This document shows, piece by piece, positions 1,118 to 24,001 of a DNA stretch of 24,388 nucleotides. Made by a program: the position numbers and the translations under genes. Below the pieces are notes generated by a model. It had not been told where the DNA came from. It did not search any database and was given only the letters and a program-made list of their open reading frames with translations. The stretch spans positions 1 to 24,388 of IMG/VR virus record IMGVR_UViG_3300046009_004891. One strand, written 5' to 3'. Within the stretch, counting starts at the first letter, position 1, and every line of letters begins with the position of its first letter. This DNA comes from a virus.

Positions 1118-1323
1118 CTATTGACCTCCGTTTTGTTGAAAGTTGTTCGATTAAGAGTCCAAGAAAGCAGCGCTTGGAACAGTGATCGTGCTGCCAGTGT
1201 AGCCTCGAATCGAGCCTTTCGTGATTCGCACCTCGTCAATCCAGCCGCGATAAGCAAAGCGAGGATCACCAGAAACACCGCCAAGCCGAGAATTAGTTGC
1301 ATCGTCGTTGTCAAACGATCCAT
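1114..1323 (-). CDS. Candidate overlapping small membrane protein (possible holin)
   Basis: A 69-residue reading frame lies mostly inside the 3' end of the LamG-like gene in another frame and ends with an ATGA overlap on the endolysin start. Residues about 8-29 (MQLILGLAVFLVILALLIAA) form a strong transmembrane helix, followed by a basic, soluble tail rich in Arg. Its position directly before the endolysin fits a holin or another lysis regulator. Against it, no convincing Shine-Dalgarno sequence precedes ATG 1323 or the internal ATG. In its favour, the LamG codons over the helix carry T at the third base much more often than elsewhere in that gene, which is what makes this frame hydrophobic. 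It may still be a shadow frame. Confidence 0.35.
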   Translation of the reverse strand: MDRLTTTMQLILGLAVFLVILALLIAAGLTRCESRKARFEATLAARSLFQALLSWTLNRTTFNKTEVNR

Positions 1324-1909
1324 TGGAATCAGAGGCTACTAGCGTACCGTCCACATAGATTCTACGGGCGGTGCCTTCCCTCACCCAAGCGACCCAAGTA
1401 AAATCCGTTGTGCTGATTGTTACAGACGCACTAAGGTCGGTGAAAACGTTTGAGCGCCACCAAACCGTAGTTGGCGTGACTCCAAGTGCAAGCCCCTCGG
1501 CTGAGTTCTGCGCGCCTGCCGACCACCAAAAGCCGACAGAAATATGAGGGGCAACAGGTCGGAACCAGCCCTCAATCACAAAGTCTTCGGTCTCCATGAA
1601 GTGACCGGCGATTCTTGAAGTCGGCTCAATATATTCGCCCGTGTCTGTTCCGGACGATGGCGACTCAAATCGCGTAGACGCAGTGCCAAACTGTTTCTCG
1701 TCAGTATCGACGTAAGGGCCAGCGGACGATGCGCCTGCATTCCGTTGCCAAGTCGTGGTGTTAATTACGTCCGGCCACGACTGCGACTCGTCCGTACCGT
1801 CCATGTGCAATAGCAACGTAACAAACGAAAAGAACGGATCGGTTGGTCCAGCCGGAGCAAACCTGTACGGATCGAGAATAAAACTCACGTCCGTCTCCCA
1901 ATCAACCAA
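1151..1909 (-). CDS. LamG/concanavalin A-like jelly-roll protein, probable tail appendage
   Basis: The protein has 252 residues from a TTG start. Features of the LamG/laminin-G-like jelly roll used in phage receptor-binding proteins can be seen: LLLHMDG near the N-terminus, FVIEGWFRPV in the middle, RRIYVDGTLVA, and the C-terminal block SRLGGVSGDP...YRGWIDEVRITKGS. Such domains bind carbohydrates or stabilise fibre tips. It overlaps the upstream tail-fibre-like gene by 25 bases, which suggests translational coupling; only a weak GAAAG precedes the TTG. The upstream frame is open to about 1969, so ribosomal frameshifting from the fibre gene is formally possible, but the fibre's natural-looking end (GLKVWLIGRRT) argues for two separate proteins. 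Confidence 0.85.
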   Translation of the reverse strand: MVDWETDVSFILDPYRFAPAGPTDPFFSFVTLLLHMDGTDESQSWPDVINTTTWQRNAGASSAGPYVDTDEKQFGTASTRFESPSSGTDTGEYIEPTSRIAGHFMETEDFVIEGWFRPVAPHISVGFWWSAGAQNSAEGLALGVTPTTVWWRSNVFTDLSASVTISTTDFTWVAWVREGTARRIYVDGTLVASDSNGSFDNDDATNSRLGGVSGDPRFAYRGWIDEVRITKGSIRGYTGSTITVPSAAFLDS

Positions 1910-3024
1910 ACTTTCAACCCACGAGCACCAGTAGTTCCAATCTGGTCTACATCCACAGTGATCTGGGCATCATCGGCAAGCGATGTGTCGGAGATCACGG
2001 GAGCTGTAGCAGCCGTTGTGCTGGTCAGCTCGGTATTGTCAATGGTCAACTTCGTGCTAAGGATCGATGTACCCGCCTCGTTGATGTCAACCGTAAAGAT
2101 TGATCCACTAGGCTGGGCTGTACTCAACGAAGCTCGGACACCCGTGAGGGTAAACGCGTAGGGCATACGGAAAGTCACCTTAGCCGTCCCGGCTGTGATG
2201 TCCGTAGTCTCATCAGAGCAAGCAACACCGATAGCTTCGATGGGTTTGGAGTCTACGTTACCGGAACCCACGAGGGACTGGTTGTCAACAGTACGGATGT
2301 TCGTACCGGACGCAAGGGTGTCTTGCTTAGAGCTTGGGCTGAAATTACCCGCGTGCCACATCCCGTTCCCGTTGAACTCAGGGGCAGTTGACCCACTGGT
2401 AAACGTGAACGTGGTGATGTCATTACCAGCGTCACCGACAGCTTCAAGAGTCCAACTAGTCTGGTTAGACCCGGTACGACCCATCTCCAAACGGGCATAG
2501 GAGCCCGTGTCAGTGGGGTGGTCATACTGGACACTCAACTCATCGAAGCCAACGATAGAGCGAGCACCGACTCCCGTTGCAGGGCCGATACGTACCGCAC
2601 TTGGAAGCGTGAGAGTAGTACCATCCCACACTGTACCGAGCACACCCCCGAAGCTCGTTCCATTGCGGAACTGGAGCTGAGTCCCGGTTCCACCGGGTGT
2701 ACCACCACCTCCGGTGGGGGCTTCATTTACCCACCGACTCGTTCCCGAGTCCCAAGTGAGCACATCACCGTCAGCGACGGTGGTAATAACCACATCCCCG
2801 ATGTCATCTAAGTTTCCGATGGGGAGTGTGGGGAGGGGTACATTCTCCCAAACCATCAAGGATGAGTTGTACTGCAAGATGTCTTCATCATCTGGGTTGG
2901 AGATCAACACATCGCTGATCTCCCCCAGTTCAGTCTCTTGGAGGATGCCCTCGAAGAGATTACGGAGGGCCACTTCCTCGTTTACGGGAAAGGGGAACAG
3001 CTTAGATTTCTTAATATCGGACAA
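1885..3024 (-). CDS. Tail-fibre-like structural protein
   Basis: The protein has 379 residues, starting at TTG 3022-3024 behind an excellent AAGGAGGG site. Residues 33-62 and 71-101 are two copies of a motif (L-x-DI/EI-x-DV...D-x-DIL/DVL-x-Y/W...VW/WVNE) common in phage fibre and appendage proteins. A Gly/Thr-rich hinge (PTGGGGTPGGTGTQ) follows at about 103-117, then Gly/Ser/Thr-rich sequence resembling fibre shafts. The C-terminal third (ITAGTAKVTFRMPY...GLKVWLIGRR) resembles the jelly-roll ends of phage structural proteins. It is the second gene after the promoter at 3290-3318 and is followed by the LamG-like gene. Assignment to the virion is inferred from composition and neighbours. Confidence 0.85.
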   Translation of the reverse strand: MSDIKKSKLFPFPVNEEVALRNLFEGILQETELGEISDVLISNPDDEDILQYNSSLMVWENVPLPTLPIGNLDDIGDVVITTVADGDVLTWDSGTSRWVNEAPTGGGGTPGGTGTQLQFRNGTSFGGVLGTVWDGTTLTLPSAVRIGPATGVGARSIVGFDELSVQYDHPTDTGSYARLEMGRTGSNQTSWTLEAVGDAGNDITTFTFTSGSTAPEFNGNGMWHAGNFSPSSKQDTLASGTNIRTVDNQSLVGSGNVDSKPIEAIGVACSDETTDITAGTAKVTFRMPYAFTLTGVRASLSTAQPSGSIFTVDINEAGTSILSTKLTIDNTELTSTTAATAPVISDTSLADDAQITVDVDQIGTTGARGLKVWLIGRRT

Positions 3025-3339: not shown

Positions 3340-3609
3340 CTAAGAGAGTAGCTTCTCCGCTTGTTCCTTGATCTCATCGGTAAACGGGAAGTCAAACCCC
3401 GAAGCCCCCTCCCAATCTCGGAAGTAGTCGAGATGGTACGGAACCTTCTCGGATTCCTCGGGGTGCTCCGTCTGGAGCTTGACCAACTCTCGGGACCACA
3501 TGTCAAACATGTAATCGGGAACCACGGACTCGTACATCCGGTAGTACAGGTACGAGTGGACGGCGATGTTACGGCGAAGCTCAGCGATACGATCAATTAC
3601 GTTTTTCAC
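3340..3609 (-). CDS. Stand-alone NAD+-DNA-ligase Ia-like domain protein
   Basis: The protein has 89 residues from GTG 3607-3609, with AGAGG upstream and a GTGA overlap with the preceding gene. Its sequence follows the pattern of the N-terminal Ia domain of bacterial NAD-dependent DNA ligase (LigA): IAELRRNI-x-x-H18-x-YLYY, then P-D32-x-x-F35-D36, then REL-x-KLQ-x-EHPEE. In LigA this domain holds the NMN half of NAD+, and the D-x-x-Y/F-D residues take part. The adenylation domain with its KxDG lysine, the OB fold and the BRCT domain are all absent, and no partner gene is nearby, so it cannot be a ligase alone. It may bind NAD/NMN, or act on the host ligase. The resemblance is by motif only. 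Confidence 0.8.
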   Translation of the reverse strand: MKNVIDRIAELRRNIAVHSYLYYRMYESVVPDYMFDMWSRELVKLQTEHPEESEKVPYHLDYFRDWEGASGFDFPFTDEIKEQAEKLLS

Positions 3610-3782
3610 AGTTTAAACCTCTTGGGCCAAGTAATCTTGGCGTTCTTTGCCATCTCGTGTGCGAACCAGAACAACTCTTGGGGTGTGATCTCCCCGGCTT
3701 TGATCCGGTCTCGGTCCTTTGCGTAGATTTCTTGGAGGTAGGCTTGAACCTCATCCCACGTCATGTCCTCGATCTTTTTCAC
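3606..3782 (-). CDS. Small hypothetical helical protein (58 aa)
   Basis: The gene runs from GTG 3780-3782 to a TGA that overlaps the GTG of the ligase-domain gene (GTGA). A good site, GGGAGG, lies 5-6 bases before the start. The product begins MKKIEDMTWDEVQAYL and includes EITPQELFWFAHEMAKN, with a basic end (TWPKRFKL). It is charged and helical with no membrane segment. No family is recognised. The ribosome site, the overlap and its place in a compact leftward row support a real gene, probably co-translated with its neighbour. Confidence 0.75.
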   Translation of the reverse strand: MKKIEDMTWDEVQAYLQEIYAKDRDRIKAGEITPQELFWFAHEMAKNAKITWPKRFKL

Positions 3783-8477: not shown

Positions 8478-8879
8478 ATGCCCATCGTCCGCACCATCCA
8501 AAGCTTCAACGAGTTTGCCGAGTCCTTCCGTTCTATGGGGCGTGGGGGCCAGTTCCAGAACCTTGAGTGGCTTTATGACTATCTCGAAGAATACTCCGAC
8601 AGTTGTGGCGAGCCTGTCGAGCTCGACGTAATCGCTCTGTGCTGCGAGTACACGGAGGACGCCTACGATTCCATCGCGGACAGTTATACGGACTGCGCTT
8701 CCTACTTCCCCGACCCGGCTGACTACTCCGACATTGACGAGGGTGGCGAAGTCATCGACGGTACGCTTGACGAAGAAGCCTTCACCGAAGCCCGACGTGA
8801 GGCGATCCTTGAGTATCTTCGGGATAACACTTCCGTGTGTGGGTACGATGACGAGACGGTGTTGTATGCCCAGTTTTAA
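8478..8879 (+). CDS. Acidic conserved-looking phage protein (133 aa)
   Basis: ATG 8478 follows AAGGAA by about 9 bases. The protein is strongly acidic. Its first half, SFNEFAESFRSMGRGGQF, then LEWLYDYLEEYSDSCGEPVE and LDVIALCCEYTE, matches a pattern I recall from small acidic phage and plasmid proteins ('F..MGR..QFS...L..L..YLE.....G..IELDVI.LCCE..E'). The second half, EAILEYLRDNTSVCGYDDE, also fits that pattern. No activity is known to me; the acidity would allow DNA mimicry, which is only a guess. Confidence 0.85.
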   Translation: MPIVRTIQSFNEFAESFRSMGRGGQFQNLEWLYDYLEEYSDSCGEPVELDVIALCCEYTEDAYDSIADSYTDCASYFPDPADYSDIDEGGEVIDGTLDEEAFTEARREAILEYLRDNTSVCGYDDETVLYAQF

Positions 8880-8898
8880 CCGAAAGGAGACAACCAAA

Positions 8899-9933
8899 AT
8901 GATTACCACTAAAAACCCGAAGTGCGTTTACTTACTCCGCGTAAACGACCCGGAGAACAAGTCCCGCAACAAAACCTTTCAGTACCCGAAGAAGGGCACC
9001 GTGACCGCTCCCGATTGGATTCCCGACCGCGTGTGTGGTCGTGGTCTGCACGGGTGGGAGAATGGTGAAGGTGATTACTCGGCGGCAGATTGGCACGAAG
9101 ACGGGGTTTGGCTTGTTCTCAGAGTGCTTGAATCTGACCTTGTGCGGCTTAACGGTAAAGTGAAGTTCAAGACCGGCACTGTCGCCCACGCTGGCACCAG
9201 AGAAAGCGCAACGCGCTACATTTGGGAGAAGACAAAGGCTCCCCGTATTATTGGGTTGGTTCTCACGGGTGGGGATTACTCCACCCTCACGGGTGGGTAT
9301 CGCTCCACCCTCACGGGTGGGTATCGCTCCACCCTCACGGGTGGGTATCGCTCCACCCTCACGGGTGGGGATGAATCCACCCTCACGGGTGGGCATCGCT
9401 CCACCCTCACGGGTGGGGATTACTCCACCCTCGCGGGTGGGGATTACTCCACCCTCACGGGTGGGGATGGCTCCACCCTCACGGGTGGGTATAAACCCAC
9501 CCTCACGGGTGGGGATAAATCCACCCTCACGGGTGGGGATGAATCCACCCTCACGGGTGGGTATAAATCCACCCTCACGGGTGGGTATAAATCCACCCTC
9601 ACGGGTGGGTATAAATCCACCCTCACGGGTGGGGATTACTCCACCCTCACGGGTGGGTATAAATCCACCCTCACGGGTGGGGATTACTCCACCCTCACGG
9701 GTGGGGATTACTCCACCCTCACGGGTGGGGATGGCTCCACCCTCACGGGTGGGGATAAATCCACCCTCACGGGTGGGGATAAATCCACCCTCACGGGTGG
9801 GGATGAATCCGTACTCTGTTGGCGCGTATGGGATGGTCACCGCCACCGCCTGCACGTCCGCTATACCGGCGAAGGCGGTATCGAATCAAATAAGGCATAT
9901 CGGTTTGTAAATGGTGAGGTGGTGGTTGTGTGA
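8899..9933 (+). CDS. Octapeptide-repeat protein resembling ice-nucleation repeats (344 aa)
   Basis: The start is ATG 8899 behind AAAGGAGA; the open frame extends upstream only by chance. Residues 1-122 form a non-repeat domain (KCVYLLRVNDPENKSRNKTF, then CGRGLHGWENGEGDYS and WLVLRVLESDLVRL) similar in feel to phage proteins that begin with a 'GLH' domain followed by repeats. Residues about 124-307 are 23 octamers GG-(D/Y/H)-x-S-T-L-T, where x is Y, R, E, G or K. Bacterial ice-nucleation proteins use octamers of the type AGYGSTLT, so a right-handed beta-solenoid is expected. A C-terminal cap (CWRVWDGHRHRLHVRYTGEG) completes the chain. There is no signal peptide, so it is probably cytoplasmic. 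Its role is unknown. Confidence 0.85.
   Translation: MITTKNPKCVYLLRVNDPENKSRNKTFQYPKKGTVTAPDWIPDRVCGRGLHGWENGEGDYSAADWHEDGVWLVLRVLESDLVRLNGKVKFKTGTVAHAGTRESATRYIWEKTKAPRIIGLVLTGGDYSTLTGGYRSTLTGGYRSTLTGGYRSTLTGGDESTLTGGHRSTLTGGDYSTLAGGDYSTLTGGDGSTLTGGYKPTLTGGDKSTLTGGDESTLTGGYKSTLTGGYKSTLTGGYKSTLTGGDYSTLTGGYKSTLTGGDYSTLTGGDYSTLTGGDGSTLTGGDKSTLTGGDKSTLTGGDESVLCWRVWDGHRHRLHVRYTGEGGIESNKAYRFVNGEVVVV
9268..9819 (+). repeat. 23 tandem 24-bp units (22 full plus one degenerate)
   Basis: The units are in phase with the octapeptides. Each junction carries the inverted repeat CCACCC-tcac-GGGTGG, so the array could form more than 20 hairpins in single-stranded DNA or RNA. Most bases are invariant even at third codon positions; changes concentrate in codons 3 and 4 of the unit (GAT/TAT/CAT, then TAC/CGC/GAA/GGC/AAA). 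Because 24 is a multiple of 3, long frames appear on both strands here. The pattern indicates recent expansion or homogenisation. Confidence 0.95.
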
Positions 9934-22206: not shown

Positions 22207-23205
22207 ATGACTTTTCAGTTCAACCCCCTGAAGACCAACAATACTTCGGATGAATCCAAGCCGAAGGTCGATTACAACGAAGTCAACGCCCACGTTATTG
22301 AACGTGCTGGCACGGCTACCAAGGCCCGCTCCATCCCCGGCTACATCTCTTCCATCGTGGACCTTGGTGTCCAGCCTCGTACTATCGAGACGGAAGTGAA
22401 GCCCGGCGAAGAGTACCCTGAGGATGCCGAGTATTACACCGGCCAATGGGGAGACCAGAAGGGTAAGCCCTGTGTTCGGTTCACCGTTCCTGCGAAGCAG
22501 GCGATTGCCATTACTGTGGATTTCCCACAGATCATGGTGGACAAGGGCCAGTTCTTCGGTGACAGCCACGAGCTTCCGCTCCGTCTGATCCTCAACGGTG
22601 AGCGCCTTGTCCAGAACGACGAGGGTAAGTGGCAGCCGCAAGTCCAGAAGCTGATCTACCTGTCGGAGAAGAAGCACGAAGATGGTACGTGGGCTGTGGC
22701 TAAGAACGCACTGCTCCACAACCTTGCCGCTGCGGCTGGTATCCTTGATGCACAGGGCTACTTCAACGTCAACCGTATCGGTGAGCTGCTGGGTCAGTGC
22801 CTCCAGTTCCAGTTCCGTGTGTACATGAAGCCGGGCAAGAATGGCAAGTCGTACTACACCGAGGAGATCAAGCTGGCAGGTATTGTCCCCGAGGGTGTCA
22901 GTGCCCCGGCTATGCCTGAGGGTGTGGTCAACGGTATTGTGTGGTCGGATGGAACCAAGCCCGATGCTGATGATGTGAGTAAGCTACGCCTCTCCATCCG
23001 CAACACGATCCGTAACGCCACCAACTTCAAGGGCTCAACCATCGAGAATCTCCTTGACAAGCCCCGCGAACAGAACGACAATAGTCGTCCCGTTAACCCT
23101 TCTACTGAAGTAACCAAGCCGAAGGCTGCGGCTAAGACAGCTCCCGCGAAAGCGGTGAGTTGGGAAGATGATGAACCCGAGGATGTCGATAGCCCGTTCG
23201 GTTGA
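22207..23205 (+). CDS. Probable single-stranded DNA-binding protein (332 aa)
   Basis: The protein probably coats single-stranded DNA during replication. The core has strand-rich parts (PEDAEYYTGQWGDQKGKPCV, RFTVPAKQAIAITVDFPQIM) and a lysine-rich region before the tail (EVTKPKAAAKTAPAKA). It ends SWEDDEPEDVDSPFG, an acidic tail with Phe near the end, as in bacterial SSB and T7 gp2.5, where it recruits partners. The core does not match a family by eye; the tail, the linker and its place behind the polymerase are the arguments. The ribosome site is weak (AGGAA). GC3 is high here, suggesting strong expression. Confidence 0.65.
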   Translation: MTFQFNPLKTNNTSDESKPKVDYNEVNAHVIERAGTATKARSIPGYISSIVDLGVQPRTIETEVKPGEEYPEDAEYYTGQWGDQKGKPCVRFTVPAKQAIAITVDFPQIMVDKGQFFGDSHELPLRLILNGERLVQNDEGKWQPQVQKLIYLSEKKHEDGTWAVAKNALLHNLAAAAGILDAQGYFNVNRIGELLGQCLQFQFRVYMKPGKNGKSYYTEEIKLAGIVPEGVSAPAMPEGVVNGIVWSDGTKPDADDVSKLRLSIRNTIRNATNFKGSTIENLLDKPREQNDNSRPVNPSTEVTKPKAAAKTAPAKAVSWEDDEPEDVDSPFG

Positions 23206-23924: not shown

Positions 23925-24001
23925 TGCGGGTTAACTCAACTGGTTAGAGTGCCAGCCTTTGAAGCTGGAAGTTGTGAGTTCGAGTCTCACACCCGCTGCC
24001 A
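23925..24001 (+). tRNA. tRNA-Gln (anticodon UUG), CCA encoded
   Basis: All arms can be paired by eye: D stem ACTC/GAGT, anticodon stem CCAGC/GCTGG with loop CTTTGAA (anticodon TTG at 23959-23961), T stem GTGAG/CTCAC with loop TTCGAGT, acceptor TGCGGGT/ACCCGCT, discriminator G and encoded CCA (23999-24001). The first acceptor pair is U1-U72, a mismatch; bacterial tRNA-Gln commonly has a weak U1-A72, and GlnRS is known to open the first pair. The tRNA would read CAA/CAG codons for the phage. Confidence 0.95.

Follow-up and report, generated by a model that had tools for sequence, protein, structure and literature searches.

Gene organization at the locus

The window, that is, the whole 24,388-nucleotide stretch of DNA analysed here (IMG/VR record IMGVR_UViG_3300046009_004891), encoded a solo Nlig-Ia protein of 89 amino acids on its minus strand (3340-3609; PF22745, E 2.4e-27), with a GTG start and its stop at 3340. 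A 58-amino-acid ORF upstream (3606-3782, minus strand) overlapped this gene by 4 nt (GTGA), which likely indicated translational coupling, and the AAGAGG found in the upstream sequence 8 nt before the GTG (3618-3623, minus strand) was likely its ribosome-binding site. The gene was located between small ORFs and the tail and lysis genes, with the polymerase gene of the window ca. 17 kb away on the opposite strand. Relatives L006-L010, which were 92-100% identical, had the same neighbours, namely tail-fibre-like and endolysin genes.

Comparison with L008 yielded nonsynonymous and synonymous changes per site (pN/pS) of 0.024/0.346, indicating that the protein was under purifying selection. The comparison with L010 was less extreme, at 0.210 synonymous and 0.059 nonsynonymous, with part of the change falling at the poorly conserved start. 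The ORF at 3340-3609 is a real gene under purifying selection.

Several other features of the window were recorded. A Laminin_G_3 lectin-like ORF (1151-1909, minus strand) overlapped the end of a tail-fibre-like ORF (1885-3024, minus strand) by 25 nt in another frame; the counterpart ORF of this region in L008 was longer, and a frameshift or sequencing error in the window is possible. In an ORF of 399 amino acids (8734-9933, plus strand), a stretch weakly resembling DUF7666 (E 0.0005, short of the cut-off) preceded an extended array of STLTGG-type short repeats. Downstream of the DNA polymerase, a 332-amino-acid protein (22207-23205, plus strand) matched phrog_2544 (E 1.4e-74) and had no Pfam match, and a tRNA-Gln (anticodon TTG; 23925-24001, plus strand) was located close to the end of the fragment.

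Identification as domain Ia of LigA

The only Pfam match of the 89-amino-acid protein was PF22745 (Nlig-Ia), which aligned over profile positions 3-86 of 92 with 95.8 bits, against a Pfam cut-off of 27 bits. In PHROGs it matched phrog_6466, a family of 104 positions labelled "DNA ligase" (E 2.5e-23), and in phmmer it matched E. coli LigA (4glx) with an E-value of 6.9e-5. Among PDB sequences, LigA chains were matched near their N-terminus, by single-sequence as well as by profile searching; the profile list also contained two RxLR-effector rows (E 0.007-0.01) in which no stretch passed alone. The LigA-alignable part was an Ia core of residues 4-53 (3451-3600, minus strand), defined by phmmer alignments to LigA residues 4-51 and by model helices 4-24 and 32-48. 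The full-length ligase model TIGR00575 gave 24.8 bits against a cut-off of 444, matching at positions 1-42 of 652 only.

An AlphaFold2 model, for which 48 sequences from the window and IMG/VR served as input, exhibited the helical Ia fold with a mean pLDDT of 94.5. Foldseek placed LigA at the top with a probability of 1.00, yet with no E-value below 0.13. In VIA-align, the top 25 rows were LigA entries with Z-scores of 8.0-5.1, followed by the first unrelated row at 4.8; the alignments included 7k72_B (Z 8.0, 69 residues, rmsd 3.0) and 3uq8 (Z 7.4, 59 residues, rmsd 1.5). With several LigA chains the structural alignment, as given by its first and last residues only, leapt from Ia to chain residues ca. 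150-165, too little to argue that the C-terminal segment mimics a segment of the NTase domain. As Z-scores below 13 may be unspecific for helical proteins, the claim of homology is carried by the sequence evidence.

The preliminary description of this DNA had proposed an isolated LigA Ia-like domain, and the PF22745 match, the LigA sequence matches and the Ia fold of the model bore this out. It had named a profile match to LigA Ia and a helical Ia fold as the checks of this proposal; sequence profiles did find LigA Ia, and the fold was present in the confidently predicted model, for which LigA entries were also the top structural matches.

Distribution and conserved residues of the family

A tblastn search returned 281 phage records at E ≤10, 165 of them with at least 80% query coverage; the remaining records included some full-length ligases, such as that of phage Moabite. 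Solo Ia genes occurred in phages of Arthrobacter, Rhodococcus, Bacillus, Carnobacterium, Enterococcus, Erwinia and E. coli. The alignment comprised 75 domains (the window, 62 IMG/VR loci and 12 phage-record loci), reduced to 56 at <90% identity. The window protein shared 26-49% identity with the other 13 sequences of alignment A1, and ECBP2_0056, the example given by Iyer et al. (2022; PMC9503650), was alignment member L022.

Seven residues were invariant in all 56 non-redundant members: I8, H18, S19, Y22, Y23, D32 and G71. The invariance of H18 and S19 is biased, as both were part of the scan pattern and of the motif filter, although the filter removed no row. One conserved helix face read H18-S19-x-x-Y22-Y23 (3541-3558, minus strand; 56/56, with the same search bias for H18 and S19), and the remaining NMN-site positions read D32-x-x-F35-D36 (3502-3516, minus strand). 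Position 35 was always aromatic (F, Y and W in 22, 15 and 19 members), while D36 was retained in 36 members and replaced in 20, 19 of which had W35. Ligand binding may therefore not be universal in the family. The window protein belonged to the F-D type.

The essential residues of E. coli LigA Ia are Y22, H23, D32, Y35 and D36, and Y22 and Y23 of the window protein correspond to Y22 and H23 of that site. On this basis, the window protein had the full NMN site (Y22, Y23, D32, F35 and D36), and three of the five NMN-site positions were among the seven invariant positions of 89 (hypergeometric P 0.003, or 0.002 outside the scan-pattern positions). In the preliminary description, H18, D32, F35 and D36 had been placed where LigA has its NMN-site residues. 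Those positions were correct, as the HMMER alignment set them opposite H18, D32, Y35 and D36 of E. coli LigA. As an NMN site, the set was right for D32, F35 and D36; H18 was conserved but lies outside the essential five, and Y22 and Y23 had been overlooked.

Beyond the part aligned to LigA, residues 63-75 (3385-3423, minus strand) formed a C-terminal motif, F-x-x-[FW]-x-G-x-[ST]-G-x-x-L-P, with F63 in 53, [FW]66, [ST]70 and G71 in all and L74 in 54 of the 56 members. The LigA of phage Moabite matched PF22745 at positions 2-52 of 92 only. The C-terminal third, with these five positions, is a feature of the solo Ia family. An RRRRQ stretch was likewise family-specific and missing from LigA; the window protein was less basic there (ELRRN).

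The solo form has been called virus-only (PMC9503650), and solo Ia was also present in two bacterial genome records, L082 (Anaerovibrio slackiae) and L083 (Robertmurraya siralis). Their neighbours were of phage type (Sak4-like, ribonucleotide reductase and dUTPase PHROGs), and these loci are therefore probably prophages. A third hit, L084, was rejected as a solo Ia, being a short match that did not contain the Ia core.

Search for a ligase catalytic module

The preliminary description had stated that nothing else of the ligase existed nearby, and this held in the window: searches of the 24.4-kb fragment for PF01653 and PF01068 found none, and TIGR00575 did not extend past the N-terminal stretch noted above. 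At 89 amino acids and with no PF01653, the protein is outside the definition of LigA, which comprises an NTase domain with KxDG, OB, zinc, HhH and BRCT. In the longer relatives G001 and G002 (62.5 and 64.2 kb, possibly fragments themselves), Ia was the sole ligase match. Profile searches of 58 lone-Ia records, many of them fragments, gave no ligase module above the cut-off, whereas the positive control, the LigA of phage Moabite, was detected as expected. A split ligase was rejected on these grounds.

As a control, we searched the DNA-polymerase-related loci on contigs of at least 20 kb that lacked Ia (19 of 80 loci), and none of the 19 had a ligase. Since these contigs were ligase-free as well, the absence of a ligase tells little for or against any role of Ia; it is the expectation for phage records of such size. 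The idea that ligase avoidance signals a LigA-linked role was accordingly rejected.

The only ligase matches outside Ia among the lone-Ia records were a BRCT stretch in G024, within a 518-amino-acid protein adjoining a T4-like portal, and, in G044, a weak match to PF01068, which was rejected as a DNA ligase since it is an RNA ligase (PF09414). The 518-amino-acid BRCT protein was encoded beside the T4-like portal gene at L091:164-1720, in the record of L057, whose phage also has a solo Ia. Its BRCT part alone matched LigA significantly; by eye, the remainder showed a stretch resembling a C4 zinc finger and perhaps an NTase in degenerate form that lacked KxDG.

Helicase fusions and neighbouring genes

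Fusion of Ia to an SF2 helicase was found in both orders, with Ia first in L016, L027 and L029 and last in L048, and is the most useful lead of this analysis. In ReqiPepy6 gp102, Ia (residues 16-101) stood ahead of an SF2 helicase with weak profile matches (DEAD 0.0005, Helicase_C 0.006), and ReqiPoco6 (L027) had the same layout. In L048 the helicase (Helicase_C 2.9e-5) preceded Ia at residues 420-505, and the helicase parts of the ReqiPepy6 gp102 and L048 fusions were 49% identical over ca. 400 residues. Fusion genes were located at L048:6741-8306 and L016:3965-5593, and ReqiPepy6 gp102 was labelled merely "DNA ligase". Of the 75 loci examined, L039, L059 and L017 had the helicase of the fusions encoded on its own, no more than 8 kb from Ia. 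The fusion-type helicase was present in 252 phage records, counted irrespective of whether they also had Ia.

The genes that recurred around Ia (up to 8 kb away) were those for DNA polymerase A, clamp loader, RecA, ThyX, ribonucleotide reductase and dNMP kinase. Such replication and nucleotide genes of recurrent clusters were found at 32 of the 55 non-redundant loci, a count taken at Ia loci only.

In a few genomes, Ia was found beside genes of NAD+ salvage. The gene order in Weasels2 was Prs, HNH, NAMPT and Ia, with NAMPT and Ia overlapping, while in L031 and L036 Ia came first, then a Prs-like gene, then small ORFs and finally NAMPT. Clusters uniting Ia with NAMPT and a gene resembling ribose-phosphate pyrophosphokinase, in these two orders, were located at L015:1018-4279, L031:1542-4807 and L036:7908-10953. 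PF04095 (the NAPRTase/NAMPT family) was detected in 5 of the 55 lone-Ia records, the genes being close together in three of the five. The window fragment had no PF04095 gene, and thus no NAMPT/Prs adjacency there. NadV has been reported in 2% of small, 22% of medium and 33% of jumbo phages (PMC9503650). Set against these values, 5 of 55 gave no sign of a general NAMPT enrichment, and a general partnership of Ia and NAMPT was not supported.

Proposed function

The findings suggested that solo Ia is the NMN- and NAD+-gripping domain of the ligase, which phages have retained as a gene in its own right, with a C-terminal addition of its own. NMN, either free or as one half of NAD+, would be bound in the pocket of aromatic and aspartate residues as it is in LigA Ia, and occupancy of the pocket would alter contact with a phage partner. 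By this means, functions of infection could respond to the level of nicotinamide nucleotides; in many phages these would be replication or repair, and in a few NAD+ salvage. We give an even chance to the window protein being such an NMN/NAD+-binding regulatory protein, and consider this the most likely reading in view of the PF22745 and LigA matches, the fold, the conservation of the pocket, the helicase fusions and the NAMPT/Prs neighbours. Against it, a lone Ia is half of the cofactor site of LigA, and its affinity could be weak; PF04095 was present in few of the records, and the window gene is far from the polymerase gene, among tail and lysis genes.

The main rivals to a binding regulator were an adaptor that requires no ligand and a modulator of host LigA. 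The former, which we consider unlikely although it is the strongest of the alternatives, would serve to recruit DNA or replication proteins, having given up its ligand and using the basic stretch and the C-terminal motif as its interface. Both of these are family-specific and not in LigA, although the stretch is less basic in the window protein, and the helicase fusions in both orders and the loss of D36 in 20 of 56 members are also in its favour. The invariance of Y22, Y23 and D32 and the aromatic residue 35 in all 56 members are as expected for a nicotinamide site that has been kept, which argues against an adaptor. The modulator, also unlikely, would bind the host ligase at its NTase domain, beside or instead of the ligase's own Ia, and would activate, retarget or inhibit the enzyme. 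The lone-Ia records had no ligase module, and such phages probably use host LigA; replication and nucleotide genes were also frequent near Ia. However, ligases were equally missing from the related contigs that lacked Ia, so the absence is no signal; LigA is not needed for the helicase fusion or the NAMPT clusters, and inhibition would be harmful to a phage that has no ligase of its own. Interference with host LigA, which the preliminary description had put forward, found neither support nor contradiction.

A more specific proposal, which we hold as a doubtful one, is that solo Ia acts as a regulatory subunit, gated by nicotinamide nucleotides, in an SF2 helicase or replication complex of the phage, being fused to the helicase in either order in some phages and working in trans in others. 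Phage DNA replication or repair would thereby be throttled by the NMN/NAD+ state, e.g., when NADase defence fires. The helicase fusions do point to a concrete candidate partner.

Cellular NAD+ is in the millimolar range. A sponge or shield that protects against NADase defences by sequestration and not by signalling would therefore require huge expression, and sequestration hardly explains the helicase fusion; this explanation is improbable, although it has the pocket conservation and the NAD-salvage neighbours in three genomes in its favour and was proposed in PMC9503650. Section 3.5.1 of that paper suggested that solo NLig-Ia senses NAD+ or shields it against NADase effectors, and the central sensing and shielding idea of the preliminary description is thus already in print as a hypothesis. 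Sensing or sequestering of NAD+/NMN fits the conserved pocket, as judged from sequence. The role in countering NAD-depleting defence that had also been put forward gained modest support from the clusters with NAD-salvage enzymes in three genomes; the scarcity of PF04095 went against it.

A decaying, functionless ligase fragment, for which the presence of the N-terminal domain only would speak, is in effect refuted by the purifying selection (pN/pS as given above); the wide occurrence in unrelated phages, the conservation of its own C-terminal part and the operon-like overlap with the upstream ORF also argue against it.

Solo Ia proteins are labelled "DNA ligase" in dozens of phage records, which is misleading, since they are unable to ligate alone. 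If NMN or NAD+ is bound, phages would have in these proteins natural receptors of very small size for nicotinamide nucleotides, and NAD+-based immunity would be tied directly to phage replication.

Comparison with known systems

In phage NAD+ salvage (NAMPT/NadV with Prs, and NAD+-reconstitution systems), the Ia gene clusters with the pathway in Weasels2, L031 and L036; unlike the members of that pathway, Ia is not an enzyme, and the window has no PF04095 gene. Bacterial LigA shares with the window protein the helical fold and NMN-site residues of its domain Ia. The window protein differs from LigA in lacking the NTase, OB, zinc, HhH and BRCT domains and is unable to ligate alone, and solo Ia has a family-specific HS at 18-19 and the C-terminal motif beyond the LigA match. 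According to a review (PMC5052709), the NMN moiety is bound by subdomain 1a, which may also be the first to contact NAD+.

Iyer et al. (2022, Viruses 14:1977; PMC9503650) reported solo NLig-Ia in 81 phages, which with one exception had neither an NAD+- nor an ATP-dependent ligase; we found no other literature on solo Ia. Passages of sections 3.5.1, 3.6, 3.9 and 4 and the Figure 4 legend of that paper describe no helicase fusion of NLig-Ia and no NadV neighbour. Compared with the solo NLig-Ia described there, the window member comes from an uncultivated phage, is located beside tail and lysis genes and not in a replication operon, and has F at position 35. It shares with them (PF22745, phrog_6466) the same domain, the solo architecture and the conserved ligand residues, no ligase catalytic module being found in its 24.4-kb fragment, and the window gene is a further member of the phage family described in 2022.
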